From Sipunculus nudus (lineage: Eukaryota; Annelida; Sipuncula; Golfingiida; Sipunculidae), in contig CM049307.1 in the NCBI GenBank assembly GCA_026874595.1, positions 248,001 through 312,000 of the forward strand: DNA of 64,000 bases, given 5' to 3'. Both the position numbers and the translations under genes were made by a program. A model generated the notes under the pieces. It saw nothing but the letters and a program-made list of their open reading frames with translations. It was not told the origin of the DNA and made no database searches. Positions 6,003-56,406 of this stretch are shown piece after piece; the first letter of the stretch is position 1; every line of letters starts with the position of its first letter.

Positions 6003-7013
6003 ATTTCTTTAACTCTACAACCAAAGACACTAAAATTGCACACTCATAAAGGAATAATTTAGTAATCCAAGCAGTCTTTTATGGCATTTGTCTTCAACAA
6101 GAGAAGAGTGATACCATATAAATACATACAATCAATTAACACAGTGATATTGTGACAAAAATAAATAAATCTGATAAAATTAAAGTTCTGAACAAGATAT
6201 TTAGCTGTTACTGGCATTACTACCTTCATCAATGTTCTTCTTGATCTACATTGGTTTAAAATATATTTTGTTCTGTTCACTGGAACCCCCTCCCCCTGAA
6301 AAAAATACCCAAGTTTTTCTCTGTCCACATCTTGTGTATAACTCTCTTTAGGTCTTCACCTAAACCATCAATCATCATGCGCGAGGCATTCTATAAATAT
6401 AGTATAACGGACTACTTCGTATGAAAGGGGTCTGACTTCAGGTGTAACGTATGTTATGTGCTTCGTATGACAGTGGTCTGACCTCCCCAGTTGCATTCTT
6501 AACCTGCGTTACATTATGCTAACACAAACTTTGAGCAGGTCATAATGACCAAGCTTTAGGCTGCTATGCTGACCCATACCATGTGAGAACACTAGATAAC
6601 CACAACAACTGTTGTATGATCGTTCAAGAGACTGGGGTTGCTTATATGAACATGTTAACTGTACTTAAATTGGGATCGTCCAAAACACAGAAATTCCGCA
6701 GGATGCCCCATAATACCGGCCTAAATTTTCAATAAAATACCCTTCAGATAGTTGCTTTAGATGATTATGGGATATGGTCACGTCTGTCAATGGTCATATT
6801 TTGATCGAGTTGAGGGAGAAATTGAGTTTCTGATCAATAACTGCCATGCTAGGGATTAAGCTAAACGAGCGTTATCTTTTACCTTAAGTATCATGGAATC
6901 TAAATACCCCGTAATCAACCTGTGGAAAATTTAGTATTATAAATAATTATTTTTTAAAGCTACATTTACCAATATTGGCCTCAGTGTTTGCATATATTTT
7001 AAGACAAGTGACC
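6003..7013. other. GPANK1 upstream region
   Basis: This should contain the GPANK1 promoter and 5' UTR, but I see no confident core-promoter motif. A short imperfect direct repeat is present at about 6413-6485 (cttcgtatga...ggtctgac twice). Otherwise it is AT-rich single-copy-looking sequence with no supported exon. Confidence 0.4.
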
Positions 7014-32300: not shown

Positions 32301-35300
32301 ATGGTAGGATGGCACGTAAGATGGTGGTATCAGGTTTACACTGAGGTAACTGTGACTGAGAGTTTGGTATTATGGTAGGATGGCACGTAAGATGGTGGTA
32401 TCAGGTTTACACTGAGGTCACTGTGACTGAGAGTTTGGTATTATGGTAGGATGGCACGTAAGATGGTGGTATCAGGTTTACACTGAGGTCACTGTGACTG
32501 AGAGTTTGGTATTATGGTAGGATGGCACGTAAGATGGTGGTATCAGGTTTACACTGAGGTTACTGTGACTGAGAGTTTGGTATTATGGTAGGATGGCACG
32601 TAAGATGGTGGTATCAGGTTTACACTGAGGTAACTGTGACTGAGAGTTTGGTATTATGGTAGGATGGCACGTAAGATGGTGGTATCAGGTTTACACTGAG
32701 GTAACTGTGACTGAGAGTTTGGCATTATGGTAGGATGGCACGTAAGATGGTGGTATCAGGTTTACACTGAGGTAACTGTGACTGAGAGTTTGGTATTATG
32801 GTAGGATGGCACGTAAGATGGTGGTATCAGGTTTACACTGAGGTAACTGTGACTGAGAGTTTGGCATTATGGTAGGATGGCACGTAAGATGGTGGTATCA
32901 GGTTTACACTGAGGTAACTGTGACTGAGAGTTTGGTATTATGGTAGGATGGCACGTAAGATGGTGGTATCAGGTTTACACTGAGGTAACTGTGACTGAGA
33001 GTTTGGTATTATGGTAGGATGGCACGTAAGATGGTGGTATCAGGTTTACACTGAGGTAACTGTGACTGAGAGTTTGGTATTATGGTAGGATGGCACGTAA
33101 GATGGTGGTATCAGGTTTACACTGAGGTAACTGTGACTGAGAGTTTGGTATTATGGTAGGATGGCATGTAAGATGGTGGTATCAGGTTTACACTGAGGTA
33201 ACTGTGACTGAGAGTTTGGTATTATGGTAGGATGGCACGTAAGATGGTGGTATCAGGTTTACACTGAGGTAACTGTGACTGAGAGTTTGGTATTATGGCA
33301 GGATGGCATGTAAGATGGTGGTATCAGGTTTACACTGAGGTAACTGTGACTGAGAGTTTGGTATTATGGCAGGATGGCATGTAAGATGGTGGTATCAGGT
33401 TTACACTGAGGTAACTGTGACTGAGAGTTTGGTATTATGGCAGGATGGCATGTAAGATGGTGGTATCAGGTTTACACTGAGGTAACTGTGACTGAGAGTT
33501 TGGTATTATGACAGGATGGCATGTAAGATGGTGGTATCAGGTTTACACTGAGGTAACTGTGACTGAGAGTTTGGTATTATGGCAGGATGGCATGTAAGAT
33601 GGTGGTATCAGGTTTACACTGAGGTAACTGTGATTGAGAGTTTGGTATTATGGTAGGATGGCATGTAAGATGGTGGTATCAGGTTTACACTGAGGTAACT
33701 GTGACTGAGAGTTTGGTATTATGGTAGGATGGCATGTAAGATGATGGTATCAGGTTTACACTGAGGTAACTGTGACTGAGAGTTTGATATTATGGTAGGA
33801 TGGCATGTAAGATGGTGGTATCAGGTTTACACTGAGGTAACTGTGACTGAGAGTTTGGTATTATGGTAGGATGGCATGTAAGATGGTGGTATCAGGTTTA
33901 CACTGAGGTAACTGTGACTGAGAGTTTGGTATTATGGTAGGATGGCACGTAAGATGGTGGTATCAGGTTTACACTGAGGTAACTGTGACTGAGAGTTTGG
34001 TATTATGGTAGGATGGCACGTAAGATGGTGGTATCAGGTTTACACTGAGGTAACTGTGACTGAGAGTTTGGTATTATGGTAGGATGGCACGTAAGATGGT
34101 GGTATCAGGTTTACACTGAGGTAACTGTGACTGAGAGTTTGGTATTATGGTAGGATGGCACGTAAGATGGTGGTATCAGGTTTACACTGAGGTAACTGTG
34201 ACTGAGAGTTTGGTATTATGGTAGGATGGCACGTAAGATGGTGGTATCAGGTTTACACTGAGGTAACTGTGACTGAGAGTTTGGTATTATGGTAGGATGG
34301 CACGTAAGATGGTGGTATCAGGTTTACACTGAGGTAACTGTGACTGAGAGTTTGGTATTATGGTAGGATGGCACGTAAGATGGTGGTATCAGGTTTACAC
34401 TGAGGTAACTGTGACTGAGAGTTTGGTATTATGGTAGGATGGCATGTAAGATGGTGGTATCAGGTTTACACTGAGGTCACTGTGACTGAGAGTTTGGTAT
34501 TATGGTAGGATGGCATGTAAGATGGTGGTATCAGGTTTACACTGAGGTCACTGTGACTGAGAGTTTGGTATTATGGTAGGATGGCATGTAAGATGGTGGT
34601 ATCAGGTTTACACTGAGGTCACTGTGACTGAGAGTTTGGTATTATGGTAGGATGGCATGTAAGATGGTGGTATCAGGTTTACACTGAGGTCACTGTGACT
34701 GAGAGTTTGGTATTATGGTAGGATGGCATGTAAGATGGTGGTATCAGGTTTACACTGAGGTAACTGTGACTGAGAGTTTGGTATTATGGTAGGATGGCAC
34801 ATAAGATGGTGGTATCAGGTTTACACTGAGGTAACTGTGACTGAGAGTTTGATATTATTGTAGGATGGCACGTAAGATGGTGGTATCAGGTTTACACTGA
34901 GGTAACTGTGACTGAGAGTTTGATATTATTGTAGGATGGCACGTAAGATGGTGGTATCAGGTTTACACTGAGGTAACTGTGACTGAGAGTTTGATATTAT
35001 GGTAGGATGGCACGTAAGATGGTGGTATCAGGTTTACACTGAGGTAACTGTGACTGAGAGTTTGGTATTATGGTAGGATGGCATGTAAGATGGTGGTATC
35101 AGGTTTACACTGAGGTCACTGTGACTGAGAGTTTGGTATTATGGTAGGATGGCACGTAAGATGGTGGTATCAGGTTTACACTGAGGTAACTGTGACTGAG
35201 AGTTTGGTATTATGGTAGGATGGCACGTAAGATGGTGGTATCAGGTTTACACTGAGGTAACTGTGACTGAGAGTTTGGTATTATGGTAGGATGGCATGTA

Positions 35301-36716
35301 AGATGGTGGTATCAGGTTTACACTGAGGTAACTGTGACTGAGAGTTTGGTATTATTGTAGGATGGCATGTAAGATGGTGGTATCAGGTTTACACTGAGGT
35401 CACTGTGACTGAGAGTTTGGTATTATGGTAGGATGGCATGTAAGATGGTGGTATCAGGTTTACACTGAGGTCACTGTGACTGAGAGTTTGGTATTATTGT
35501 AGGATGGCACGTAAGATGGTGGTATCAGGTTTACACTGAGGTAACTGTGACTGAGAGTTTGGTATTATGGTAGGATGGCATGTAAGATGGTGGTATCAGG
35601 TTTACACTGAGGTAACTGTGACTGAGAGTTTGGTATTATGGTAGGATGGCATGTAAGATGGTGGTATCAGGTTTACACTGAGGTCACTGTGACTGAGAGT
35701 TTGGTATTATTGTAGGATGGCATGTAAGATGGTGGTATCAGGTTTACACTGAGGTCACTGTGACTGAGAGTTTGGTATTATGGTAGGATGGCACGTAAGA
35801 TGGTGGTATCAGGTTTACACTGAGGTAACTGTGACTGAGAGTTTGATATTATGGCAGGATGGCATGTAAGATGGTGGTATCAGGTTTATACTGAGGTAAC
35901 TGTGACTGAGAGTTTGATATTATGGTAGGATGGCACGAAGATGGTGGTATCAGGTTTACACCTAGGTCACTGTGACTGAGAGTTTGGTATTATGGTAGGA
36001 TGGCATGTAAGATGGTGGTATCAGGTTTACACTTAGGTCACTGTGACTGAGAGTTTGGTATTATGGTAGGATGGCACGTAAGATGGTGGTATCAGGTTTA
36101 CACTTAGGTCACTGTGACTGAGAGTTTGGTATTATGGTAGGATGGCACGTAAGATGGTGGTATCAGGTTTACACTGAGGTCACTGTGACTGAGAGTTTGG
36201 TATTATGGTAGGATGGCATGTAAGATGGTGGTATCAGGTTTACACTTAGGTCACTGTGACTGAGAGTTTGGTATTATGGTAGGATGGCACGTAAGATGGT
36301 GGTATCAGGTTTACACTTAGGTCACTGTGACTGAGAGTTTGGTATTATGGTAGGATGGCACGTAAGATGGTGGTATCAGGTTTACACTGAGGTCACTGTG
36401 ACTGAGAGTTTGGTATTATGGTAGGATGGCACGTAAGATGGTGGTATCAGGTTTACACTGAGGTAACTGTGACTGAGAGTTTGGTATTATGGTAGGATGG
36501 CACGTAAGATGGTGGTATCAGGTTTACACTTAGGTAACTGTGACTGAGAGTTTGGTATTATGGTAGGATGGCATGTAAGATGGTGGTATCAGGTTTACAC
36601 TTAGGTCTCTGTGACTGAGAGATTGGTATTATGGTTGGATGGCACGTAAGATGGTGGTATCAGGTTTACACTTAGGTCACTGTGACTGAGAGTTTGGCAT
36701 TATGGTAGGATGGCAC
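29319..36716. repeat. 71-bp minisatellite, about 104 copies
   Basis: Very homogeneous head-to-tail 71-bp units with GGATGGCACGTAAGATGG, TGGTATCAGGTTTACACTG and AGGTAACTGTGACTGAGAG. Variable sites are CACG/CATG (the unit's only CpG), ggtatt/gatatt/ggcatt, gtaac/gtcac/gttac, and cagg/catg before 'tttacac'. Variants cluster in runs: a ggcagg-catg block at about 33290-33600, a gtcac block at about 34460-34720, and a cttagg block at about 35940-36700. Between about 30370 and 30740 gatatt and ggtatt alternate, a 142-bp dimer. Because 71 is not a multiple of three no frame persists. Confidence 0.98.
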
Positions 36717-38276: not shown

Positions 38277-40732
38277 AACATATACATATTAAAAACTTGC
38301 CAGGAAAAATACTAAATTTGCTTCATTACTTGAAAAAGCACATAAAATCCACACAAATCATTTTTTTATACCCGTAATACTTCTTGAAAGGAAACAATGC
38401 AGAAGTAAAAAATAGCATCATTACGAAGGATCTGGTCCTCATTAGAAAAAAAAAGATGAGCTACCAAATCCATAGAACAATTGTTTTGTGTGTGTGTGTG
38501 TGTGTGTGATAGAAGTGTCTCACAGGAGTGTGTTAATATGCATTGTATCAGTTATCTCTTAACATCTTACTAATCAATACTCTCGGATTCCATGAACAGT
38601 TTTCATAAAGTCACAAGTTTTAATGAAATAAATGATTCAGTTTAAAAATTCATGTGCATGGATTTTCATGGATTTTGCAACTTTTGTTTATAAAGTGTTC
38701 TGGTGAATTGATGTATTCCTCCTTTAGGCTCAGATGAAAGTCAAATAAAAAATTACATATAATAACAAGTGGAAACATTTCACTGTATTCTTTAGAACTA
38801 AAAAAATTAGATGCATATTCCAGTATGTTGTTTATATTTGTGGATAATCATATTTTAATAGCATAATGAAACATTCTGTTATCTTTTATGAATGTAAATT
38901 ATGAAATATTCCAGTATTTTATTTATCTCTGTTTCATGAACATTTCTGTGTATATAATGAAATGCTATATTGTCTGTATATAGGGGCACTGTTAATACTT
39001 AATGTCACAATGTTCTCTTTGAATGTACAGTTCATTATTTCAAACTTTTTTGTCATATTATCATGGAACAGATCTGATAGGTTCTATTACTATATGTGAG
39101 CATTATTTGGTCTATATATATATTTGCTTGTTGAAACGATTCAAAACTTACCATGTGTAGGGTGTAGGAGTCCACCTGAGTCAGTGAGCCAGCTTTTGAA
39201 CACAGGGTATATACATCAAGCAGGGTATCAAAGGCCCTTTGCACCCAGCCAGTGTGTCCCAGTGTCACTTTTTATATCCAGTTGGAGCATAGTAACAGTA
39301 CTTATGGGGGACAAGCCAATACCTGACAACCAGCCAGGTCCAAAGGAAGGTGGTATGGGAAAATATACCGGTTGGCTGGGTGTAATTAAAGCTAGCTAGG
39401 ATTTGATCAGTTGCATATGGCAAGGTCTGTTTGCCTTGTGTTCTTGCTCACTTAGGCTCAGTTTATTAAAAGGCTACCTGTAAGTGGTCCCTGTGAATGA
39501 TGGAGTCAGGACCTGCAAACAATCACAAATCTTGTACCACTGTCTGTAGTTTGTATTTGAACAACTCCCAGGACGTTGCCAGATCACATTGACAAGCACT
39601 TTTCTGGTTTATTAGCACACAAATGAGAATGACACTGGTTGAAACCTCTAGGATGACTATGTCTATATATCTGACTGTTGGCAGGCTTTACATATCAAAT
39701 AGTAGCTCAGAGCTGTAGATAAGCTGTCATTATACTCAGACATTTACCTAGTGATCAAATGGTAAATATGATTAATGATTCATCGTACTGGGTTGGGTGT
39801 GCTTTCTTATTGATAAGAATATGATCTGTTTCATATTCAAGTCCATGTATTTTTTTTTATCTATAATCATTGAACAGCAAAATTCTGCTTACAGATCTAC
39901 CTGTTACAGTTTTAGAAAATTTTAAACTTTGCCAAAACCTGTTTTTATTATTTCCATAAATATCACTTCACAATATATGTGGAAAGAAAAGGTAAAATTC
40001 ATTGGTTAATATTTTTGTATTTGGACACTTAAACTTAATGTTTGTCTAATTTATTTTTACTCTGACCATTTATAATATTATTATTTCAATTATAATAATT
40101 ATTATTTTTTTTATTATTATTTTTATCTTCATTGTTACTTTAAATATTATTATTACTCCTGTGAAATAACAAAAATAATCATTAAAGCATGTAAAAATTA
40201 TAACACAAATTATTCAATTTGAATCAAAATAAATATTTATTTATTTGTTTGTATATATTGGATTAACTACTTTTTACCTCACAATTAGTCCTATTTCAGA
40301 TTCAAATAAAAAATACTTGTATTTTTAGCAATAAGATCAGTCAAGTCCGATGTAACTGTTTATATCCCTCTGTACTTCATACACATTATCTGTGGTATTC
40401 CCCATTGTAAGTCCTGTTTAATTCATGTGTTCCTAAGGTTATTAAACTTGCAAAGTCACAAACTGTCTTTTGAGATAAGTGTACCTGACAGTTAAATGCT
40501 ATACCTGGCAAATGTGTAAAAACATGAAATTAATAGTGTGTGGCCCCTCAGTAACCATGTACTCAACGAACAACCCTTGTTTTTATTTGTACAAGTCCAG
40601 GCAAAGGTTACCGTCAATACACAGCACCCATAGGTTTATCAGAAGCAGACCCCACTGTGTAATTTTATATCAACACCAGTGTGGGGGCCCTTGAGACAGC
40701 AGGAACAGGTTTGTAGGGATAAGTTATACAGA
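38277..40732. other. AT-rich region upstream of the TEX47-like gene
   Basis: It includes a (GT)n run at 38487-38508 and A/T/ATT-rich tracts at about 40070-40150. It should contain the promoter of the downstream gene, but no specific motif stands out. A possible minus-strand exon at 39155-39270 is listed separately. Confidence 0.5.
39155..39270 (-). CDS. Possible minus-strand exon, unidentified
   Basis: The minus strand is open through WVQRAFDTLLDVYTLCSKAG and SLTQVDSYTLHM and ends exactly at a consensus donor, ATG|GTAAGT. The protein composition looks more like coding sequence than the surrounding AT-rich frames. The 5' border is uncertain: the only AG upstream (after a purine-rich AAAAAG) has no pyrimidine tract. 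I do not recognise the family, and it may be chance. Confidence 0.2.
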
Positions 40733-40885
40733 ATGGCTCGCAGAAAAACGCTCCATGCCCACGAGCCTGAGGATGAGCTGGATAAGCTGTTACGATCAAA
40801 GGCGACTCCAGATATTGATGTTCCGACAAAGTCGTTGTTCGAGGCTATCTTGGATCGTAGGTTTCCTGGTGGCGATGAAGAATCG
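40733..40885 (+). CDS. TEX47: TEX47-like exon 1
   Basis: The first ATG in the frame (A at -3, G at +4) opens 51 codons, MARRKTLHAHEPEDELDKLL to FPGGDEES. The exon is ended at TCG|GTCAGT in phase 0, which fits exon 2. That donor is weak at +3; a nearby alternative (ACA|GTCCAA at about 40901) also keeps phase 0 but is poorer. Confidence 0.6.
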
Positions 40886-43800
40886 GTCAGTCATTACTTG
40901 ACAGTCCAAGAGTTTTTCTCTAAATTTAAGTATACTGTTATTACTGCTTGGTATGATAAAATAGTTTTAATGTTCCTTAGTGTATGTATTGTTAAAAAAT
41001 GGTCTAGTGAAATTAAACCTATTTATAGATTAATGTTCTTAGATGAGGGAAACCTGTATCCATTGTATATGAACTAATCAAACATTCATGGATATGTGTA
41101 TCTCAAAACAGGAAGTGTGTAGAAATGTGAATATAAATATTTTAAAACAAACATGATATCAAGATATTAGTATATTCAAACCAAAATGTATATGGATAAT
41201 CTGAAGGTGTTTGGGTAATTTGTATTTTCAAACCAATGAGATATATATATTAGTGAAACCTCAAAATTATTATCACCAACAGGAATTTGATAAAGTGGTT
41301 GCATTGTCATGGTGGTCTTCTAAGCAAGGTCTGATAAAAAGAGCAAAAAAGAAATGGGGGTCTCGAAAAAATGGTTGTTATTTTGAGGTGGTGGCTCAAT
41401 GAGGTGGTCGTTAGGTACGGTTTTACTGTAATTTGTGTAAAGATAATTGAATGTAGAGTTTCCTTATTATATCATGGGGGTACTGAAAATGTATTCCATT
41501 TACAGGAAAGATCTATAAACAGTGGTTATATACATGCATATTTTTAGATTCTTAAATGGCCAGTTGAGAAATAATAACATGAAGTGAAATAAGAGACAAA
41601 GAGTGGCTTGGAATAGAGGCATAATGTGGAAGTATAGATATGCTAGTGCCAGAATATTATAACGTTCATAGTATCATAGTGTTACAGTGATAAATACACA
41701 TTATCACACCTGATGACTACAGACTTATTTGTGGGATATCACCTGGCTATGTTAATAAAAAAGGGCAGCAGATTTATAATGTAGTAATCTTGTCGGACTT
41801 GGTGTATCATGAATCAGCACTAGTGGGAAATGTGGCTAAATACATTTTTTTTTATCTTCCTGTATGTTTTGTTGCTTGATAATGATGGACCATGATTGCA
41901 TGTCATCTGGTACATCATGCCCCATCATTTAATGGTTACATTATACATCCAAGAGATGTTACAGATAGTTAGTTGCTCTGAGGGTTTAATCTTTTCTCTC
42001 TATAATCTGAGGTTCATTTAAGAGTGATAAGATTAAAAAAAAGGTATACTTCCATTTGATTTATTCAAGCCCATTACCTGTAGTAATACATATACCAGGA
42101 ATCCTTTTGCCAGTCTGATAATGATTAACATATGGGATTGATTACATAAACATATGTACCAGTGACAGAGCTTCTGTTAGCGCTGAGCAACAGCTGTCTG
42201 TTCCCTTTAGTAGTGTATAGTCTTTATCCTGATATGTAGGGATCAGGAATGATTGTAGAAGGATCAGTTGTCTTGGAAATACGTATCAGTATAATTAGGT
42301 CTTGAGAAAAATCTTCAGTTGAAGTTCAATAGAACTGATACTTTAATCCTAACACCAGGTATACACTAATACTCAAGGGCAGATCCATGATTTAGGATAA
42401 GGGGGGGGGGGGGGGGATCAAACCAAGAGGACTAATGACTTCTGATACTTTTTTTTGGGGGGGGGAGGTTTGCAGTCAATGCCTCAGTTCATTTTCATAA
42501 GCCAAACTTTATCTAATTTTACCTGTATGGGCAAGGAAGTTAAAATTAGATAGAATATAGTAATTCGAACATCGTCCAGCATGAAAGGAACCCATGTCTC
42601 AGTCAACAAGGATTTATCTCTGCTGCCTATATTGTATATGTGGGGGATGCCATGATTGTACTCGTGGTCCGTCTTTATCTGAGTACCTTGTAAAAGTCGG
42701 ACAGTTCAATTACCGCGTCTCGTCCTGCTTTCTGCAGCTAAGCCTAAGCATTTTTTTGCTGGATTATTTGCATAAATTTTCATGAAATATATCCTTATAA
42801 ACCGATTGCCACATTGAGTGATTTTTGAGTCCTGCTGCTTTCAATCTCTGCATGCTGTGTATGTAATATTGGATGGTACTGTGACATTTTTTATTTTGTT
42901 TGACTTCAGTGCACAGTTACATTTAATTTTTAAGTAATTTCTTTGCTTGTAATTTTTCATTGAACCAAGCAGGCTGGTCCTAAAGATTGGTTTTCCAAGC
43001 TGAGAAATTATTGGGCATTACAGCAGAATTTTTTTTATGCAAGCAAATTCCTTGTCAACGTCAGTGGATCACATTTTTCTTTCGGTCCTTCAACTTTGAC
43101 ACCATAAAGTTTTGCCTACTGTATACATATATATATATGTGTTTTTGTATGTGTACAGTCATTTTGATTTGTTTATACGTTGGTCATTATAGTTTACTTG
43201 TTTTTACAGAAGAGTTTGCTGCACCGTATGGTCATCATATCCAAATTGTCTCATCAGAATTCCAAAGAAATTGGCGGTAAGTCACTTTTGTGAACACACC
43301 CAATCAATTTTGGTTTCTGCAATCCACATTAACTTTACCTAATCTTTGTTAAATATTTGTAGCTGGCAGTTCTATTTACAAGATGTTAATAATTACATGA
43401 GTTTTCTGTGTAATGGTTAATCTAAAATGTGATGTTTGTGTATTTAAGATCAATTACCCCTTGTGTTTAAAAATGGAAAAATACAAGTAAATTGATAATC
43501 TGTTCCCTTACTTTGTTTATTCATGTTACAGTTGCAAAGTGATGCTAACTTAAGGGAATGAGAGCTCTAGGCTAACTCAAGAAGATATACAAGTATGTAA
43601 AACTGTACATATATACACTTAAGTGGGATGATATTGGTTGATGTTGCTTCACGAAAAATTACAATAACTCAGGTGAATGAGATATACTTTACTTGATGTC
43701 ATCACTGGTGTTCTATACAGACTTATCGTCATGATGTTGTTATTGACAGTGAATCTTTTTATTTACAGAGTACTACGAAAACTACTTTAAAACACCCCAG

Positions 43801-46800
43801 AACCAGTTCCACGCAGAGGGGGTAACAGGTCTACTCCTAATATACCCACGCCATTGTGTCCATGTAATAGAGGTATGTAATACTGTATTGTGTCCATGTC
43901 ATAGAGGTATGTAATACTGTATTTCCTGGTCTACTCCTTTTACACCCACGCCATTGTGTACGTGTCATAGAGGTATGTAATACTGTATTTCCTGGTCTAC
44001 TCCTTTTACACCCACGCCATTGTGTCCATGTCATAGAGGTATGTAATACTGTATTTCCTGGTCTACTCCTTATGACCCACGCCATTGTGTCCATGTCATA
44101 GAGGTATGTAATACTGTATTTCCTGGTCTACTCCTTATGACCCACACCATTGTGTCCATGTCATAGAGGTATGTAATACTGTATTTCCTGGTCTACTCCT
44201 TTTACACCCACGCCATTGTGTCCATGTCATAGAGGTATGTAATACTGTATTTCCTGGTCTACTCCTTTTACACCCACGCCATTGTGTCCGTGTCATAGAG
44301 GTATGTAATACTGTATTTCCTGGTCTACTCCTTTTACACCCACGCCATTGTGTCCATGTCATAGAGGTATGTAATACTGTATGTCCTGGTCTACTCCTTT
44401 TACACCCACGCCATTGTGTCCATGTCATAGAGGTATGTAATACTGTATTTCCTGGTCTACTCCTGATATACCCACGCCATTGTGTCCATGTCATAGAGGT
44501 ATGTAATACTGTATTTCCTGGTCTACTCCTGATATACCCACACCATTGTGTCCATGTCATAGAGGTATGTAATACTGTATTTCTTGGTCTACTCCTTTTA
44601 CACCCACGCCATGTGTCCATGTCATAGAGGTATGTAATACTGTATTTCCTGGTCTACTCCTTTTACACCCACGCCATTGTGTCCATGTCATAGAGGTATG
44701 TAATACTGTATTTCCTGGTCTACTCCTGATATACCCACACCATTGTGTCCATGTCATAGAGGTATGTAATACTGTATTTCCTGGTCTACTCCTGATATAC
44801 CCACACCATTGTGTCCATGTCATAGAGGTATGTAATACTGTATTTCCTGGTCTACTCCTGATATACCCACACCATTGTGTCCATGTCATAGAGGTATGTA
44901 ATACTGTATTTCCTGGTCTTATCCTGATATTCCCACACCATTGTGTCCATGTCATAGAGGTACGTAATACTGTATTTCCTGGTCTACTCCTGATATACCC
45001 ACACCATTGTGTCCGTGTCATAGAGATATGTAATACTGTATTTCCTGGTCTACTCCTGATATACCCACACCTTTGTGTCCATGTTATAGAGGTATGTAAT
45101 ACTGTATTTCCTGGTCTACTCCTTATACACCCACGCCATTGTGTCCGTGTCATAGAGGTATGTAATACTGTATTTCCTGGTCTACTCCTGATATACCCAC
45201 ACCATTGTGTCCATGTCATAGAGGTATGTAATACTGTATTTCTTGGTCTACTCCTGATATACCCACACCATTGTGTCCATGTCATAGAGGTATGTAATAC
45301 TGTATTTCCTGGTCTTCTCCTTATACACCCACGCCATTGTGTCCATGTCATAGAGGTACGTAATACTGTATTTCCTGGTCTTCTCCTTATACATCCACAC
45401 CATTGTGTCCATGTCATAGAGGTATGTAATACTGTATTTCCTGGTCTACTCCTTATACACCCACGCCATTGTGTCCGTGTCATAGAGGTATGTAATACTG
45501 TATTTCCTGGTCTACTTCTTATACACCCACGCCATTGTGTCCATGTCATAGAGGTACGTAATACTATATTTCCTGGTCTTCTCCTTATACACCCATGCCA
45601 TTGTGTCCATGTCATAGAGGTATGTAATACTGTATTTCCTGGTCTTCTCCTTATACACCCACGCCATTGTGTCCATGTCGTAGAGGTACGTAATACTGTA
45701 TTTCCTGGTCTACTCCTTATACACCCACGCCATTGTGTCCATGTCATAGAGGTATGTAATACTGTATTTCCTGGTCTTCTCCTTATACACCCACGCCATT
45801 GTGTCCATGTCGTAGAGGTACGTAATACCGTATTTCCTGGTCTACTCCTGATATACCCACACCATTGTGTCCATGTCATAGAGGTATGTAATACTGTATT
45901 TCCTGGTCTACTCTGTATACCCCCAGTCATTGTGTCCATGTCATAGAGGTATGTAATACTGTATTTCCTGGTCTACTCCTTATACACCCAGGCCATTGTG
46001 TCCATGTCATAGAGGTATGTAATACTGTATTTCCTGGTCTACTCCGTATACACCCACGCCATTGTGTCCATGTCATAGAGGTATGTAATACTGTATTTCC
46101 TGGTCTACTCCGTATACACCCACGCCATTGTGTCCATGTCATAGAGGTATGTAATATTGTATTTCCTGGTCTTCTCCTTATACACCCACGCCATTGTGTC
46201 CATGTCATAGAGGTACGTAATACTGTATTTCCTGGTCTACTCCGTATACACCCACGCCATTGTGTCCATGTCATAGAGGTATGTAATACTGAATTTCCTG
46301 GTCTTCTCCTTATATACCCACACCATCGTGTCAATCAAGCACAGCCAATAGAATGTAAGCACCACTCTGTGCAAATGCTGTCTGAACAAGAACACAATAA
46401 TAGGAACAAGATACTAAACATTTGATCAAAACATAGCACCAGACATCCTCATAGAACAAGTGTACCTGAGCAATTTGATTGGTTCAATTGCCTTATTTTT
46501 TATTAATGAAATAGATGCCAGAGAGGGTCACAGAATCAAGATCTTTAATTATTTTATTGATTTGTTCCTACATTTCTACAGAGTTCTACTGAAACATTAC
46601 TGGACATCTGTCGTGACATCAGCCGAGGAGAAAGGACAGGATCAGGGGCTACTGCCAAATCAAAAATCATCATAGTGTCACATGATGTATCCTCAAACTT
46701 AATAGTTTTGTTTGTTTTTAATTTTTACATTATGTACAGTGTGTATACATAAAACAGATTAATACAGATTTACTCACTTTATACTGTATACTAACAACAT

Positions 46801-49800
46801 ACATTAGTCACTTTTCTTTAGTTATGATTCTTTGATGAATATATGACTGACACAGTAGAACAGTATATATAGTGCGTGTTGTACCAGGTCAAATTCAAGG
46901 TGGTTTTTAACAACTTACCTACCATATCTGAAGGAAGGTCTGCATGGACTGGGACATATTAACAAAGGGAAAAAAAGTAATAGTATATTGTCCAAACATT
47001 ACTTAGGGAATTGATTTTACTCTGATACTTCCACCATAATTTTCCTTTTTTATCTTTATACAGCTACTCAGACCAAACTTTTCTAAACTTTTCTGAGAAG
47101 ATATTTAATGTGAATAAATAAGTGTATAAAATAGTTTGTTAAAATTTGTAAGCAAATATTAAATAAACATAGGTGTATTTACATGACCTAGATGCACTTC
47201 CATTACCTTGACATCTGTCAGATTCCACAGCGACTATACCAGCAATGGAACTTCCGTGGCTTGGACATTGAAGCTCCTCGGGTTGAAGAGTATGATTTGA
47301 GCGAGGACCCTGTGCATTTGATGGAAGATATTTGTTTACAGCTACTGAAGCTCGGGGCCTACTTGGCAAGACAGCCGAATGTAGGTTTAGTAATACCATT
47401 ACTAATATTTAAGCTTCTTCTTCCTCAGTGGCGCCCTCTGCCACATCATTTAACTAATAGTATGTAACCAGGATGTATAAACATTGTCATCATTTCTCCC
47501 CGGGCCTCCATCTGGGAGACATTGTTTCTACCAAATTCTAGTATGTTTTCGAAAATTGGTGACACTGACCTTGATTTCAAGATCAAATCAGCTGAAATGT
47601 AAAATGTTTGTGGACCCCTCATCTTTTGAAGTATTGTAGGTTGAATAAGCCAAATTAAATTCATTGTCTCTATGATTTTATAGTGAATGTGATAACTTTT
47701 GAATCAATTCATATTATCCCCCTCAAACTTGACACACAACTGGTGCACTTGAGCTTTATCTTTAGGGTCAAATCTGCAGAAATCTAGGATCATTGTGACC
47801 TCCATAACTTTTTAAGTACTGCACATTTTTTCCTCAAATTTGGTATACCAGTTGTTCGACCAAGTTCAAACCAGTAACCCTGACATTGATCTTCATGGTA
47901 AAATCTATGATAATATGGGATTTCTGTAAGCACTAACTTCTGAGATAGAGCACATTTTTCCTCCGGTTTGGGAATCAGGGCCAGTGGGGGGTGGGGGGGG
48001 GGACATGTATCTGTAGTTGCAACTGCAAAAACTGCTATATTAGTAGTCTGTGTTGTGACTACTCACTATTATACATACTGTAGATTGTGACCATTCTGGC
48101 ATACATACTGTAGATTGTGACCATTCAGGCAGCTGTGTAGTTTATTATCAGGTATATTAGTAGTCTGTGTTGTAACTACTCACTATTATACATACTGTAG
48201 ATTGTGACCATTCTGGCATACATACATACTGTAGATTGTGACCATTCAGGCAGCTGTGTAGTTTATTATCAGGTATATTAGTAGTCTGTGTTGTAACTAT
48301 TCACTATTATACATACTGTAGTTTGTGACCATTCAGACAGCCGTGTAGTTTATTATCAGGTATATTAGTAGTCTGTGTTGTAACTACTCACTATTATACA
48401 TACTGTAGAATGTGACCATTCGGGCAGCTGTGTAGTTTATTATCAGGTATATTAGTAGTCTGTGTTGCATCTATTCACTATTATACATACTGTAGTTTGT
48501 GACCATTCAGGCAGCTGTGTAGTTTATTATCAGGTATATTAGTAGTCTGTGTTGTAACTACTCACGATTATACATACTGTAGATTGTGACCATTTGGGCA
48601 GCTGTGTAGTTTATTATCAGGTATATTAGTAGTCTGTGTTGTAACTACTCACTATTATACATACTGTAGATTGTGACCATTCGGGCAGCTGTGTAGTTTA
48701 TTATCAGGTATATTAGTAGTCTGTGTTGTAACTATTCACTATTATACATACTGTAGTTTGTGACCATTCAGGCAGCTGTGTAGTTTATTATCAGGTATAT
48801 TAGTAGTCTGTGTTGTAACTACTCACGATTATACATACTGTAGATTGTGACCATTCGGGCAGCTGTGTAGTTTATTATCAGGTATATTAGTAGTCTGTGT
48901 TGTAACTACTCACTATTATACATACTGTAGATTGTGACCATTCGGGCAGCTGTGTAGTTTATTATCAGGTATATTAGTAGTCTGTGTTGTAACTATTCAC
49001 TATTATACATACTGTAGTTTGTGACCATTCAGGCAGCTGTGTAGTTTATTATCAGGTATATTAGTAGTCTGTGTTGTAACTACTCACGATTGTACATACT
49101 GTAGATTGTGACCATTCGGGCAGCTGTGTAGTTTATTATCAGGTATATTAGTAGTCTGTGTTGTAACTACTCACTATTATACATACTGTAGATTGTGACC
49201 ATTCCTGCATATATACATACTGTAGATTGTGACCATTCAGGCAGCTGTTAGTTTATTATCAGGTATATTAGTAGTCTGTGTTGTAACTACTCACTATTAT
49301 ACATACTGTAGATTGTGACCATTCCTGCATATATACATACTGTAGATTGTGACCATTCAGGCAGCTGTGTAGTTTATTATCAGGTATATTAGTAGTCTGT
49401 GTTGTAACTACTCACTATTATACATACTGTAGATTGTGACCATTCAGGCAGCTCTGTAGTTTATTATCAGGAATATTAGTAGTCTGTGTTGTAACTACTC
49501 ACTATTATACATACTGTAGTTTGTGACCATTCAGGCAGCTCTGTAGTTTATTATAAGGTATATTAGTAGTCTGTGTTGTAACTACTCACTATTATACATA
49601 CTGTAGATTGTGACCATCCAGGCAGCTGTGTAGTTTATTATCAGGTATATTAGTAGTCTGTGTTGTAACTACTCACTATTATACTTACTGTAGATTGTGA
49701 CCATCCAGGCAGCTGTGTAGTTTATTATCAGGTATATTAGTAGTCTGTGTTGTAACTACTCACTATAATACATACTGTAGATTGTGACCATCCAGGCAGC

Positions 49801-52800
49801 TGTGTAGTTTATTATCAGGTATATTAGTAGTCTGTGTTGTAACTACTCACTATTATACATACTGTAGATTGTGACCATCCAGGCAGCTGTTGAGTTTATT
49901 ATCAGGTATATTAGTAGTCTGTTGTAACTACTCACTATTATATATACTGTAGATTGTGACCATTCAAGCAGCTGTGTAGTTTATTATCAGGTATATTAGT
50001 AGTCTGTGTTGTAACTACTCACTATTATACATACTGTAGTTTGTGACCATTCAGGCAGCTGTGTAGTTTATTATCAGGTATATTAGTAGTCTGTGTTGTA
50101 ACTACTCACTATTATACATACTGTAGATTGTGACCATTCAGGCAGCTGTGTAGTTTATTATCAGGTATATTAGTAGTCAGTGTTGTAACTACTCACTATT
50201 ATACATACTGTAGATTGTGACCATTCCGGCATATATACTGTAGATTGTGACCATTCAAGCAGCTGTGTAGTTTATTATCAGGTATATTAGTAGTCAGTGT
50301 TGTAACTACTCACTATTATACATACTGTAGATTGTGACCATTCCGGCATACATACTGTAGTTTGTGACCATTCAGGCAGCTGTGTAGTTTATTATCAGGT
50401 ATATTAGTAGTCTGTGTTGTAACTACTCACTATTATACATACTGTAGATTGTGACCATTCAGGCAGCTGTGTAGTTTATTATCAGTTATATTAGTAGTCT
50501 GTGTTGTAACTATTCACTATTATACATACTGTAGATTGTGACCATCAAGGCAGCTCTGTAGTTTTATTTTATATTTTACATTGCAAATTACCTGATGCAT
50601 CTGATAACAGTTGAATAGATAATTTATCATTAATACATTTTTATTTCACTTTTGTAGTATTCTTATCTCTTTACAGATGGCATTGAAAAACACAATGGAT
50701 GCCCTGCATGAAAAAGTACCAGAGCTGCTGCCGCAGCAAGGTAGGCCTGTCACATCCGTCTCTCCTGTCACTACTGATTACCAGCTAGAGGACAGCATGA
50801 TACTTACATCAGTGATGCTCCTATGAAGTCATCAGTAGAAAGCAAGATGTAACAGTCATCAGGTGGCACAGGAATAAAGGAAATCATTTAAAAATGCATA
50901 CCTGAAAACAGTGTAAATTGAATTTCCCTTTTGCAGCAATAATACAAAAATCTGGAATGTTTTACTTAAAATGTTTTATATGATGAATTGAAAATATTGC
51001 ACTATCATTTTTTTTAATGCTTTGAGTATATCTGTCTTATTAATATTCTTAAAAAATATAGCTTTCAGACAGGTGAATGCACGGATCGGGTGTCACTTAA
51101 AATATTTCAAAATTAAGGGAGGAGACCTCGTATGTGCCACTGCATGGCAAAAACTGCATCATGATAACAGTAAATCACACACTATGATGAGCTTGGGATG
51201 TTGATGCTGTGTATATTTGAGACAGGATAGTAACATTACCATGTGCAGGGATGTGTCAGCTAAGATGGTTCCATATTTTGTAGATAAGGTAACAGAACTT
51301 TCTTTCTTTTACCAACAGATTCAATTGGATGTTTACTTGAGACTCAGGAGGGGCCTATTGAGACACCAGAAGATTTTGTAAACAAATATGAGAGACCTTA
51401 TGATATCTCGCTGGCCTCAGGTAATCACCATCTGTAATTAGGGTATACAGCATGTAACTGATGTTTTGTTTTGGGTGTTTCTGTGGTAGGTATTCTCCCA
51501 ATTTAAGTTGGATGCAAAATTAAGTACTAATTTTAAATAATTTTTAATTTATTTAAGCTAAAGTCAGCCCTTCCATATAAAGCCAGGTCATTCATGGAAC
51601 ACCATCATGCATCACCAGTGTCTGTCTTTTAATCTTCATGATCTTTAAGTTGTATTGACAGCTTCTTGCTGCTGTCTATAGGATAAGTTAATCAGTGAAA
51701 GAATGCGGCCATTTTGGCTCTGTTAGTTATACTTGTTAATAATTGTGTTTACGTGACATTTTCATATGAGGATAAACTGTCAGAATAGAACATAATCAGT
51801 TTTCTAGGGAATATTTTCATCAAAGTCAGTTGTTCAGTGATAAAATGGACTCTGTTACCAGGAGAGTAAGGCAATTGCAAATATAATGGCACCCTTGCAT
51901 GTGCTGCCCCCTAAAAGCCATCTGTGATATTGATTATGCAGCTCAGTGTAGCCCCTTGTGCCTTATAAAGTATGTTATAGTTTCTTTTTAGCGAACCCTG
52001 TGAGCTTATGCAATGGTGCGGCGTCATGCGTCGTCTGTACGTTAACCATAGCTATCTCAAAAATGACAGGAGCTAGCATCACAAAATTTTTTACAAATAA
52101 TCAGTCATCTGAAAAACTCCATCAGATTTTGTTTATTTTTTTCTAACTGCATTTTCTTAGATTTTATAGGGAAAAAGCTAAAAAAGCTTTAAAAATTTTC
52201 TTCTCCAAAACTGTCCAGCCAAATTTTCCAATATTTAACAGAAATGATCCCTGGAACAATTTCTCTCAAGTTTATTCAAATGGTTCCAGTTCGGAGATTT
52301 TTGGCCGAGTTACAGGAGGTTGAACTTAGTCATATGTCCATATGTCATATCTGATTTTGAGGTATTGGTGGCACCACCTACATTGATGTGTTTTTTACAA
52401 ACAAAAATGTAATTTTAAACTCTTTTAGCTTATACACTGATTTATGATGAAACTGTTAAGCTGATTGGTTTAAAATTTACAAGAATTTTTCTATGGTAGG
52501 GTTCTGCCTGTTTTGTAAGAATAGATTGGGTAAATACAGTTTTAAAAAAGCATTCTAGCCAATTGAAAAAGGCTTTCTTTATTTGAAAACAGATTTGACA
52601 ACATGCTGAGTTTCAGCACCCAAGTCAAGAGGTCACTCAGTACAAACAGGTGGGGTCCAGACATCACCATGGCAACTGACCTGGCTCTGAGGGGTGTCTA
52701 GACAATGTGTCTAGACATCTAGACACAGCTTCTAGACACAATGTTTAGATGCAGAATTCCCAGATTATTGGAACTATATCTTTCAACTGTATGAAAAAAC

Positions 52801-55800
52801 TTGGTTTGCATTTTAAGTGAACCAGGTTTATCATCAGGTCACATGTGAACTGCTGTGCCCTCATTTTTGGTTGACCTCTGACCATTTGTGCATCTGTTTC
52901 CACACATAAACCTGCATATCTCGGGAACCGTTTGACCGATCAGGCTAAAAATTTTGCACAAATGTAGCCCTTTGATAGCTTTATAACACACTAAAAATGG
53001 TGGCGCCACCTACAACCATTTTTGCACAGCGTCCATCTGTTCATCTGCCTTGGGATAATATCACTCATATCTCAGCAGTGGTTTGACTTATCCACCTGAA
53101 ATTTTGCAGGTTTATACATCCTGGACAGCTTTCTTGATTTTATGACAGGTGGCGACACCTGCATTTACGTTGACTTTGCAGACATCCAAGCTCATATCTC
53201 GAAAACCGTATGACCGATTGGACCAAAATTTTGCATGTGTATAGATCTCACAGTGCTTTTCATCATAGGCAAAACTGGTGGCGCCATCTGCAGCCACTTA
53301 TGCACAGTGTCCATCTGTCGGCCTTGGGATAAAATCACTCGTATCTCAGCAGTGGTTTGACTTATCCACCTGAATTTTTGCAGGTTAATACATCCTGGAC
53401 AGGTTTCTTGATTTTATGACAGGTGGCGCCATCTACATTTATGTTAACTCTGCAGACATACAAGCTCATATCTCAGGAACCATTTGACCAATTTGGCCAA
53501 AATTTTACATGTGTATAGATCTCACATAGCTCCTCATCATAGGCAAAACTGGTGGCGCCACCTGCAACCATTTTTGCACAGCGTGCATCTGTTCATCTGC
53601 CTTGGGATAATATCACTCATATCTCAGCAGTGGTTTGACATATCCACCTGAAATTTTGCAGGTTTATACATCCTGGAAAGCTTTCTCGATTTTATGACAG
53701 GTGGCGCAACTTTCATTCAGGTTTACTCTGCAGACATCCAAGATCATATCTGGGAAACCGTATGACCGATTGGACCAAAATTTTGCATGTGTATAGATCT
53801 CACAGAGCTTTTCATCATAGGCAAAACTGGTGGCGCCACCTGCAACCACTTATGCACAGTGTCCATCTGTTCATCTGCCTTGGGATAAAATCACTCATAT
53901 CTCAGCAGTGGTTTGACTTATCCACCTGAATTTTTGCAGGTTAATACATCCTGGACAGGTTTCTCGATTTTATGACAGGTGGCGCCACCTATATTCAAGT
54001 TTACTGTGCAGACATCCAAGCTCATATCTCGGGAACTGTTTGACCGATTGGGCCAAAAATTTGCATGTTTATAGATCTCACATAGCTCTTCATCATAGGC
54101 AAAACTGGTGGTGCCACCTGCAACCACTTATGAACACCGTCCATCTTTTCATCTGCCTTGGGATAAAATCACTCATATCTCAGCAGTGGTTAAAATTATC
54201 CACCTGAAATTTTGCAGGTTTATACATCCTGGACAATTTTTACGATTTTATGACAGGAGGCACCACCTACATTCACGTTTATGATGCAGACATCCATGCT
54301 AATATGCAACACACCTCACTCTATTCCCCTTGCCACTTAATCCATGCCTCACTTCACCTGTCCCACTCTGATTTCTGCAGATACACATAGTTGCTTGTGG
54401 ACTACCCATATTCTAGTTTTAAAATGACCTAGTCTGAAACTTTCAGGTCCGAAATGTCCATTTTGCTGAAATCATAATGACTAAGGTAGATATGCAGGCC
54501 TTAAAAGGATCAATGTTAAATTTTAAAAATAAACTTCCATTCATACTCCCAAACTTTGCACAGGTTCGCATTAGGCCTGTAGGCCTTGTTTTTTATAAAT
54601 GAAGAGAATAAATCTTCTTTACTTTTCCATACTGGTCACAGGAAAACATACGCTAAACAATTATTTGTGTGTGAAAATATGATTCATTTATGATATTCAT
54701 TCCATTATGATATATTCGCACATTTGCTGTTTCTGATCACTTGATGATATTTGATTGCAGAAATGACATGGCCGATGTTCCTGATCCCTTAATGATATCT
54801 AATTGCAGAAATCAGTGACATGGCCCATGTTTCTAATCACTTGATGATATCTGATTGCAGAAATGACATGGCCGATGTTCCTGATCCCTTAATGATATCT
54901 GATTGCAGAAATCAGTGACATGGCCGATGTTTCTAATCACTTGATGATATCTGATTGCAGAAATGACATGGCCCATGTTTCTAATCACTTGATGATATCT
55001 GATTGCAGAAATGACATGGCCCATGTTTCTAATCACTTGATGATATCTGATTGCAGAAATGACATGGTACATGTTTCTAATCACTTGATGATATCTGATT
55101 GCAGAAATGACATGGCCCATGTTCCTGATCCCTTAATGATATCTGATTGCAGAAATCAGTGACATGGCCGATGTTTCTAATCACTTGATGATATCTGATT
55201 GCAGAAATGACATGGCCCATGTTCCTGATCCCTTAATGATATCTGATTGCAGAAATCAGTGACATTGCCCATGTTTCTAATCACTTGATGATATCTGAAT
55301 GCAGAAATGACATGGCTCATGTTTCTAATCACTTGATGATATCTGATTGCAGAAATGACATGGTTGATGTTCCTGATCCCTAAATGATATCTGATTGCAG
55401 AAATCAGTGACATGGCTGATGTTTCTATTCACTTGATGATATCTGATTGCAGAAATGACATGGCCGATGTTCCTGATCCCTTAATGATATCTGAATGCAG
55501 AAATGACATGGCTCATGTTTCTAATCACTTGATGATATCTGATTGCAAAAATGACATGGCCGATGTTCCTGATCCCTTAATGATATCTGATTGCAGAAAT
55601 CCGTGACATGGCTGATGTTTCTAATCACTTGATGATATCTGATTGCAGAAATGACATGGCCCATGTTTCTAATCACTTGATGATATCTGATTGCAGAAAT
55701 GACATGGCCCATGTTTCTAATCACTTGATGATATCTGATTGCAGAAATGACATGGCCCATGTTTCTAATCACTTGATGATATCTGATTGCAGAAATGACA

Positions 55801-56406
55801 TGGCCCATGTTTCTGATCACTTGAAGATTTCTGAATGCAGAAATGACATTGCCCATGTTTCTAATCACTTGATGATATTTGTTTACAGAAATGACACACC
55901 CATGTTTCTGATCACTTGATGATATATGATTGCAGAATGACATGGCCCATGTTTCTAATCACTTGATGATATTTGTTTACAGAAATGACACACCCATGTT
56001 TCTGATCACTTGATGATATATGATTGCAGAATGACATGGCCCATGTTTCTAATCACTTGAAGATTTCTGATTGCAGAAATGACTGGCCCATGTTTCTGAT
56101 TACTTGATGATATATGATTGTAGAAATGACATGGCCCATGTTTCTAATCACTTGAAGATTTCTGATTGCAGAAATGACATGGCCAATGTTTCTGATCACT
56201 TGATGATATCTGATTGCAGAAATGACATGGCCCATGTTTCTGATCACTTGATGATATCTGATTGCAGAAATGACATGGCCCATGTTTCTAATCACTTGAT
56301 GATATTTGTTTACAGAAATGACACACCCATGTTTCTAATCACTTGATGATATCTGTTTACAGAAATGACATGGCCCATGCCTGTGACCCTCTTTCCTTAC
56401 AACTGA
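40733..56406 (+). CDS. TEX47: TEX47-like gene (BLUF-like fold), eight exons
   Basis: Joining eight phase-compatible exons gives 265 codons plus TGA, close to the roughly 250 residues I recall for mammalian TEX47 (C7orf62). Hallmarks in order: LLHRMVIISKLS (first strand, BLUF-like, but without the flavin tyrosine), GVTGLLLIYPRHCVHVIE (core 'GITGLLL...E' block), SSTETLLDICRDIS, KIIIVSHDIPQRLYQQW, then a helical C-terminal part ending in EMTWPMPVTLFPYN. TEX47 is a testis-expressed protein of unknown biochemical role; the fold resembles BLUF domains but loss of the tyrosine argues against light sensing. Every intron is GT..AG. Three introns are filled by minisatellites (43873-46330, 48035-50562, 54725-56362). 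Exon 1's 3' border is the least certain point. A poly(A) signal follows at 56775. Confidence 0.75.
42401..42416 (+). repeat. Poly(G) run in intron 1 of the TEX47-like gene
   Basis: Sixteen G, with a second shorter G-run at about 42458-42467. Intron 1 (40886-43209) otherwise shows no structured repeat. Confidence 0.9.
43210..43276 (+). CDS. TEX47: TEX47-like exon 2
   Basis: Preceded by TTGTTTTTACAG and followed by GTAAGT. It encodes KSLLHRMVIISKLS and HQNSKEIG plus one base that completes a Glu codon with exon 3. This is the first beta strand and helix of the BLUF-like domain. The isoleucine in MVIIS stands where flavin-binding BLUF proteins have tyrosine. Confidence 0.75.
43769..43872 (+). 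CDS. TEX47: TEX47-like exon 3, source of the 66-bp array
   Basis: Acceptor TTTATTTACAG; encodes YYENYFKTPQNQFHAEG and then VTGLLLIYPRHCVHVIE, ending in phase 0 at GAG|GTATGT. The last 45 bases plus about 21 bases of intron are the unit of the array that follows at once. Retention past this donor meets a stop codon after 13 codons. Confidence 0.85.
43828..46330. repeat. 66-bp minisatellite made of exon 3 end plus splice donor (about 37 copies)
   Basis: Each unit holds an exon-like part encoding GLLLIHPRHCVHVIE or a near variant, the donor GAG|GTATGT, and the intronic 'aatactgtatttcct'. The first copy is exon 3's own end. The second is shortened, so its donor (43907) lies only 34 bp downstream of the true one (43873); donors then follow every 66 bp, with an occasional 65-bp unit. 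Sub-types differ at 'gatataccc', 'ttatacaccc' and 'ttttacaccc' and come in runs. The unit has no acceptor. Because 66 is a multiple of three, long frames stay open on both strands (one minus-strand frame reaches 460 codons), but these are by-products. Confidence 0.95.
46582..46686 (+). CDS. TEX47: TEX47-like exon 4
   Basis: Acceptor CTACATTTCTACAG; 35 codons in phase 0 from SSTETLLDICRDISRGE to KSKIIIVSHD, ended by GTATCC. The VSHD terminus joins IPQRLYQQW of exon 5, recreating the 'VSHxIPxRLxxQW' block I associate with TEX47. Confidence 0.8.
47222..47380 (+). CDS. TEX47: TEX47-like exon 5
   Basis: Acceptor CATCTGTCAG, donor GTAGGT, 53 codons in phase 0. It begins IPQRLYQQWNFRGLDIEAP and ends LQLLKLGAYLARQPN. 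The middle is acidic (EEYDLSEDP) and the end is a predicted amphipathic helix. Confidence 0.85.
47440..47960 (+). repeat. Dispersed approximately 130-bp repeat in intron 5
   Basis: Three or four degenerate units with 'ataacttttgaatcaa', 'ctcaaacttgacacac' and 'gatcttcatggtaaaatc' boxes. A 'ggggggtgggggggg' run follows at about 47986-48001. Confidence 0.5.
48035..50562. repeat. 87-bp minisatellite in intron 5 (about 28 copies)
   Basis: Units contain GTATATTAGTAGTCTGTG, TTGTAACTACTCACTATTAT, ACATACTGTAGATTGTGACC and GCAGCTGTGTAGTTTATTAT. Most are 87 bp; a few carry an extra 34-bp internal duplication (121 bp), for example near 48080-48230, 49190-49240 and 50210-50250. The unit junction reads TTATCAG|GTATATT, which has both AG and GT but no pyrimidine tract. 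Confidence 0.95.
50677..50740 (+). CDS. TEX47: TEX47-like exon 6
   Basis: Acceptor TATCTCTTTACAG, donor GTAGGC. It encodes MALKNTMDALHEKVPELLPQQ plus one base completing an Asp codon with exon 7. Confidence 0.8.
51319..51420 (+). CDS. TEX47: TEX47-like exon 7
   Basis: Acceptor TTTCTTTTACCAACAG, donor GTAATC. It encodes SIGCLLETQEGPIETPEDF and VNKYERPYDISLAS, leaving one base that pairs with AA of exon 8 to form Glu. Confidence 0.8.
51960..52420 (+). repeat. Dispersed mollusc-type repeat in intron 7
   Basis: Begins 'gcgaaccctgtgagcttatg', followed by 'cgtcatgcgtcgtctgt' and 'taaccatagctatctc'. It ends near 'ggtattggtggcaccacct'. Same style as the tandem-core elements, but a different sequence. 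Confidence 0.5.
52860..54320 (+). repeat. 278-bp tandem repeat, about five copies, in intron 7
   Basis: The box CTCAGCAGTGGTTTGAC recurs at about 53071, 53345, 53623, 53901 and 54179, a period of 274-278 bp. Each unit also has two 'ggtggcgccacct' boxes and 'ctcatatctcgggaacc'. Confidence 0.9.
54725..56362. repeat. 48/55-bp minisatellite made of the last intron's 3' splice site (about 33 copies)
   Basis: The unit reads 'tttctaatcacttgatg', 'atatctgattgcag' and then 'aaatgacatggcccatg'. The last part equals the first 17 bases of exon 8, and the CAG before it is in the position of the real acceptor. TTCTAAT sits about 24 bases upstream of the AG, a good branch-point distance. A 55-bp variant has a 7-bp insertion (aaaTCAGTGAcatgg). 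The two forms alternate in the left half and the 48-bp form dominates the right half. Frames on both strands (up to 140 codons) come from the repeat. Confidence 0.95.
56363..56406 (+). CDS. TEX47: TEX47-like exon 8 (last coding exon)
   Basis: Follows ATCTGTTTACAG, the outermost of the repeated acceptors. It encodes EMTWPMPVTLFPYN and then TGA; the WP...LFPYN ending fits my memory of TEX47 C-termini. If an upstream copy of the acceptor were used, the frame would end EMTWPMFLIT or EMTWPMFLIP and then stop. Confidence 0.75.

Follow-up and report, generated by a model that had tools for sequence, protein, structure and literature searches.

The 64,000-nucleotide stretch of the Sipunculus nudus genome analysed here (the window; assembly GCA_026874595.1, contig CM049307.1, positions 248,001 to 312,000) holds a TEX47 gene in which two splice sites have been multiplied dozens of times, the donor after exon 3 by an array of 66-bp units and the acceptor before exon 8 by an array of 48-bp units, in the manner of the repeats named 'mirages' in amphioxus. 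In our estimate, with a probability of roughly 80%, both are minisatellites that arose by tandem duplication straddling TEX47 splice junctions and that persist as neutral side products of a genome rich in minisatellites, each being removed entire when its intron is spliced. According to this reading, two short stretches, each lying by chance across a splice junction, would have been duplicated in tandem, one of 66 bp at the 5' splice site after exon 3 and one of 48 bp at the 3' splice site before exon 8; each array would be removed with its intron, the gene splicing at the copy that adjoins the full exon without a break, and the array copies would drift and change length as the copy at the exon edge is held by selection on the protein.

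The gene model is built from splice signals, reading frame and homology, and comprises the following exons (here and below, a slash marks a splice junction):

43210..43276, + strand: TEX47 exon 2, with an ACAG acceptor, a GTAAGT donor and an open frame; matches the TEX47 profile and is the first exon with homology
43769..43872, + strand: TEX47 exon 3, ACAG/...GAG/GTATGT; aligns with PDB chains 9fqr and 8glv, and the last 45 bases supply the exon part of the 66-bp unit
46582..46686, + strand: TEX47 exon 4, from splice signals and frame; matches the TEX47 profile
47222..47380, + strand: TEX47 exon 5, from splice signals and frame; matches the TEX47 profile
50677..50740, + strand: TEX47 exon 6, whose inclusion widens the match with the profile to positions 1-170 of 192
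51319..51420, + strand: TEX47 exon 7, whose inclusion extends the profile match to 191 of 192
56363..56406, + strand: TEX47 exon 8, the last, with the stop; its phase fits, it encodes an SE.xWPMP ending that aligns with 9fqr and 8glv, and the first 17 bases supply the exon part of the 48-bp unit

Joined, exons 2-8 form an open frame of 645 nt with AG and GT at every intron-side edge. The 214-residue product matches the TEX47 profile (PF24787) at 3e-59, with 200.3 bits against a curated cut-off of 25 and over positions 1-191 of 192, as well as the PDB chain 9fqr ('Testis expressed 47') at 9e-32, which bears out the TEX47-like assignment that had been made from the letters of the DNA. A more distant match is the PDB entry 8glv ('Inner-arm dynein f/I1 light chain') at 9.9e-12; we take the source of 9fqr to be a mammal and that of 8glv a green alga. 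The ending SEMTWPMP was aligned to SEVVWPAP in 9fqr and to SEQVWPMP in 8glv, in a query with one mistyped residue elsewhere. For the open reading frame (ORF) at 40634-41077, the candidate for exon 1, a Pfam search gave no convincing match (best 0.41).

Intron 3, as predicted from its splice signals, extends over 43873-46581 (2709 bp), and its acceptor, before 46582, falls outside the array that takes up most of the intron:

43873..46332, + strand: array in intron 3 that multiplies the 5' splice site (a 'mirage'), built of 66-bp units after a first one of 34 bp; it adds 37 donor copies, 36 of them with GT

Tandem Repeats Finder reports a period of 66 with 37.1 copies and 94% match over 43887-46332, and self-identity at a lag of 66 is 0.86, the maximum among 200 single-base shuffles being 0.29. 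The sequence-only reading had described a unit of 45 exon bases, the donor and some further intron bases that follows exon 3 without a gap, is repeated about 37 times and fills about 90% of the intron; its anatomy is confirmed as 45 bases of exon 3 plus 21 intron bases including the donor, its share of intron 3 is 90.8%, and only the end it gave, 46330, has to be moved, to about 46332. The junction motif AGAG/GTATGT and its close variants occur at 38 sites from 43873 to 46279, that is, exon 3's own donor and 37 extra copies, the latter reading GTATGT in 30 cases, GTACGT in six and AT in one (at 45026), with GT kept in 36 of 37; the 30 are identical to the real exon 3 donor across the 9-mer. 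Successive junctions are spaced by 34 bp at first and thereafter by 66 bp, except in four 65-bp units. The array copy nearest to the real exon tail differs from it at 2 of 45 positions, and the mean difference is 4.0 over the 32 full-length units out of 36 compared (the four 65-bp units omitted).

The multiplied stretch GLLLIYPRHCVHVIE belongs to a conserved region of the protein in the alignment with 9fqr and 8glv, and because it is conserved both in TEX47 (9fqr) and in the related dynein light chain (8glv), exon 3 is the source and the array the copy. In a DNA search of the genome, which skips very common words and scores best candidates only, all 75 listed matches of the 66-bp unit fall at two copies of the TEX47 gene. 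These two observations uphold the earlier proposal of a tandem duplication of an exon-intron junction, and they speak against an origin as a mobile element or dispersed satellite inserted next to the exon. A genome rich in arrays might favour such an arrival, but the exon part of the unit is protein-coding sequence conserved in distant relatives and the matches listed are confined to the two gene copies; we find this origin hardly credible, and it was set aside as not supported by the DNA search.

What the extra donors would do to the transcript can be read off on paper. All 37 extra junctions, including the AT site, lead to a stop at codon 71-72 of 214, numbered from exon 2. The second donor, 34 bp on, shifts the frame and reaches a stop 13 codons beyond the exon 3 edge, exactly as had been predicted, and the claim that the first donor alone is productive now extends to 37 of 37 other sites. 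Since these stops precede several introns, transcripts made from array donors would be expected to undergo nonsense-mediated decay. A full-length first unit would have left the next donor in frame, a path that the 34-bp first unit closed. The same frames bear on the idea that the array itself is coding, as a retained or alternative exon end that adds 22-residue blocks. Its unit of 66 bp, the long open stretches on both strands (457 amino acids on plus, 471 on minus) and the 19 stretches of the plus frame that match the TEX47 profile all invite this view; however, long open frames go with a unit length divisible by 3, which leaves the frame open from one copy to the next, the short first unit and its early stop break the frame at the exon edge, the four 65-bp units shift it again, and synonymous variants among the units are not in excess (6 of 34 possible, against 11 of 101 nonsynonymous; p 0.37). 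A coding 66-bp array was rejected on these frame and variant grounds and is very improbable.

Early stops from 37 of 37 alternative sites, with a 34-bp first unit that sets that stop in the path of all array donors, would also suit a regulatory poison switch, in which use of an array donor brings the early stop and the levels of U1 or an SR protein tune TEX47 output. Yet the donor 9-mer ranks, among 66 windows, only 21st by fewest variant types and 35th by fewest minor bases, so that donor-specific conservation as a sign of function, tested over 36 units of the 66-bp array, was not found. Moreover, the 3' array of the same gene has no such effect, its stops lying in the would-be last exon, and like arrays adjoin exons of unrelated families. 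We consider such a switch unlikely. The variation among units suggests instead that the array copies behave as neutral, with no sign that the copies matter, as expected of minisatellites removed with their introns.

The last intron carries the mirror image of the first array:

54728..56379, + strand: array in the last intron that multiplies the 3' splice site; its 48-bp unit includes ...GATTGCAG/AAATGACATGGCCCATG, and 33 acceptors, 32 of them with AG, are added to the real one (from Tandem Repeats Finder and the unit list)

In its unit, 31 intron bases ending in AG are followed by the first 17 of exon 8; lengths of 47 or 52 bp also occur among the units, and the array runs directly into exon 8, so that both types of exon edge are multiplied in one gene. 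AG is present in 32 of the 33 extra acceptors, the remaining one reading CAA. All 33 frames entered from these acceptors stop within the array, and since the stops thus fall in the would-be last exon, decay would not be expected to follow. The EMTW core of the protein ending is kept in 19 of the 32 AG-bearing copies, in 15 of those as EMTWPM; the rest diverge earlier, two of them hitting a stop directly after the first residue. As many wrong 3' choices would rebuild a nearly unchanged ending, misuse of the 3' array may cost little, whereas misuse of the 5' array may cost output, its wrong choices probably being cleared by nonsense-mediated decay. The sequence-only reading contained neither this acceptor array nor the recurrence of such arrays in the genome, nor the published name for them.

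Stretches of the region recur in inverted orientation some 3 Mb away on the same contig (window 4914-56480 against C2:3293846-3440230), with 95-100% identity where compared. Exons 2, 3, 4 and 5 are exact in this copy B. Its match to the window (copy A) ends at window position 51528, just beyond exon 7, with exon 8 lying further on, some 34 kb in B versus 5 kb in the window, which makes the last TEX47 intron some 29 kb longer in B. Copy B is a large inverted duplication or an uncollapsed haplotype, and both readings fit. The 5' arrays have 37 spacings in A and 38 in B; their unit-by-unit alignment pairs 36 units, of which 28 are identical, with 10 substitutions, one unit found in A only and two in B only. 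For the 3' array, 33 extra acceptors in A stand beside 31 in B. Both arrays predate the split between A and B and still change length, for a haplotype and a duplicate alike, and the length instability between copies that is typical of mirages is therefore seen in both, alleles and paralogues not being distinguished by it. That a near-identical inverted copy, possibly an uncollapsed haplotype, lies on the same contig could raise the suspicion of an assembly artefact, a repeat collapsed or expanded; yet most units of the 5' array, and by eye of the 3' array, agree between two copies placed separately, the units differ among themselves in an ordered way and similar arrays occur elsewhere, all of which leaves an artefact very unlikely.

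Beyond this gene, junction arrays look recurrent across the 1.43-Gb genome, in which triplets of near-consensus donors (MAGGTRAGT) with the spacing of a 40- to 70-bp array were sought, with the reversed pattern as control. The donor pattern gave 1603 matches and the reversed one 450, although one array can yield dozens. Arrays were counted among the first 100 or so matches listed per pattern, corresponding to 118 Mb for donors and 401 Mb for the control, and among these there were 13 donor arrays against 14 control arrays (ratio per length 3.1, one-sided p 0.003); on contig 1 alone, again among the matches listed, the counts were 11 and 4 (p 0.06). The 5' flank was readable in 12 of the 13 donor arrays, the sequence at L028 being array throughout. 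When at least 20 bases of an adjoining exon-like frame had to be repeated, six of the 12 readable donor arrays and none of 13 controls showed such an exon tail (p 0.005), in a comparison that was neither blind nor equal, the frame having been read to the donor and the tail measured for donor arrays, and controls, which lack a donor, judged by eye. The six (L021, L023, L024, L026, L029 and L031) each adjoin an open frame, of whose tail they repeat 20 to 56 bases without change. An acceptor-like AG stands ahead of the frame in all but L031, where the 240 bases read contain none, and at L021 the true exon edge may lie one unit ahead of the first matching donor.

The exon at L023 is that of a type 2 phosphatidylinositol 4-kinase (PI4K2; 4hnd at 8.3e-32, Pfam at 5.1e-9), and a 62-bp array at C1:22459314-22459508 repeats its last 56 bases together with the donor. 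L031 has a FAM220 match at 3.1e-7, a PDB search giving none, and for L021 and L024 searches of the adjoining frames found no homology. The weak matches of L029 (PH domain, 0.016) and L026 (vinculin, 0.084; catenin alpha, 0.0072) carry little weight because matches in the control set, taken as chance, reach a similar level (Pfam up to 0.0033 for dDENN, and 0.076; 10 of 13 loci). Among the controls, 13 of 14 arrays were readable and none had, by eye, a repeated exon tail on its 5' side; at L039 an exon-like frame ends about 46 bp ahead of the array. The control set is impure, L034 being at its 3' end an acceptor array at a CFAP46-like exon: this 47-bp array (L034/L057, C1:87891098-87894640) multiplies a 3' splice site and ends at the exon, which when joined to the next exon matches CFAP46 at 2.4e-6, without a match in Pfam. 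The acceptor stretch of that next exon is, by eye, also present twice.

How many such arrays should arise by accident depends on the density of minisatellites. Arrays with a period of 31-80 and at least three copies numbered two in 40 kb sampled over ten contigs and, close to an end of contig 2, seven in 68 kb. On the assumption of 200,000 introns, of whose donors 10-25% fit the pattern, 0.04-0.16 junction arrays per Mb are expected from chance overlap, an estimate in which the error of the density alone exceeds tenfold, and the strict count observed is 0.05. If minisatellites are as dense as the small samples suggest, chance plus tolerance suffices, and a mechanism that seeks out junctions is perhaps not needed.

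Donor strength cannot pick the exon-edge donor because 30 extra donors share its 9-mer. Most likely, the exon-edge donor, which is made first, would pair across the 104-nt exon 3 with the upstream acceptor, inner donors defining ever longer exons (138 to 2510 nt). Extrapolation from 13 arrays in 118 Mb gives perhaps at least 100 genes with arrays of near-identical splice sites, in which the spliceosome would still use the exon-joined copy; site strength being unable to decide among identical donors, a positional rule (first made, or exon definition with the upstream acceptor) would have to. We put this generalization forward tentatively, as a possibility somewhat short of even odds. When donors of equal strength are duplicated, splicing often favours the intron-proximal one, and use of the outer donor is therefore not what one would expect by default. 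That splicing proceeds correctly in the animal is presumed.

Several points weigh against the interpretation of the two arrays as neutral minisatellites spliced out with their introns. Most array donors equal the real donor base for base, and the sequence by itself offers no reason for the choice of the first; the second and third donors, moreover, would produce exons of ordinary size (138 and 204 nt). At the 3' array strength might decide, as the real exon 8 acceptor, TGTTTACAG, is common to three copies and unlike the TGATTGCAG of most. Half of the readable donor arrays (6 of 12) fail the exon-tail test: L020 adjoins a TPR exon (2.8e-8) with which its repeat shares just five bases, L025 and L027 have frames with a repeated tail of merely 8 and 2 bases, and at L019, L022 and L030 the upstream side is repeated and no exon was seen. 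The density argument leans on an assumed number of introns and on two arrays in 40 kb. Finally, the gene model begins at exon 2, and transcription and splicing of this predicted TEX47 gene are presumed from its sequence.

The window contains further repeats. Its 47-, 58/50-, 71- and 87-bp arrays were checked for exon edges by eye only, and none was seen. The 87-bp array (48071-50564) lies within intron 5 of TEX47 and touches neither exon. The 71-bp array (29324-36716, 104 copies) lies upstream of TEX47; in the second copy of the region it extends far into the stretch L018 and is perhaps longer there. An element of roughly 339 bp occurs in tandem copies, which look related by eye, at 3263-4108, 57461-59473 and 61774-62944. 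A short ORF at 10420-10809 appears by eye to be a piece of a gag-type retroelement with a CCHC zinc knuckle, and a minus-strand ORF of 364 codons at 4914-6008 looks, again by eye, like a G-patch and ankyrin protein.

Studies of the spliceosome's choice among equal sites have relied mostly on artificial constructs with two or three sites. TEX47 offers a natural case with dozens of identical donors and similar acceptors, and like arrays stand beside other exons, one of them of the PI4K2 kinase. Should genomes rich in minisatellites commonly contain such arrays, these would steadily supply new exon ends and introns and would mislead gene predictors, and if the positional rule holds, this genome would be a ready natural experiment on splice-site choice.

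Repeats across splice junctions have been described in other organisms. In human segmental duplications, internal tandem repeats at exon-intron boundaries have units averaging 30 bp repeated 4 times and are reported to create novel introns (PMC2812944). The likeness lies in minisatellite expansion at exon-intron edges; the repeats of TEX47 sit inside an existing intron. The potato RdRp gene also has a duplicated segment that crosses an intron-exon boundary with its splice signals, and this tandem duplication made a new intron (PMC4974935); that case, however, is one duplication with one new intron, and in TEX47 there is an array for which no new intron is claimed. Closest are the amphioxus mirages in Adh3 and the globins BflGb6 and BflGb9, tandem repeats at exon-intron boundaries that occur at edges of both kinds, 5' and 3', many of the repeats carrying splice signals and the haplotypes differing in length; RT-PCR gave no sign of disturbed splicing, and for BflGb6, with 6 and 3 units in two haplotypes, it suggests regular splicing (PMC3087553). 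By its anatomy TEX47 qualifies as a gene with mirages, with units that span the exon-intron boundary (45 exon and 21 intron bases; 31 intron and 17 exon bases) at exons backed by protein homology, and with splice signals in the repeats (GT in 36 of 37 extra donors, AG in 32 of 33 extra acceptors). It differs from the amphioxus genes in carrying 37 extra donors and 33 extra acceptors in a single gene, known here from sequence, in a genome of 1.43 Gb, which is larger than that of amphioxus. New beyond the known mirages are the copy number, the presence of both edges in one gene and the signs of recurrence within one genome.

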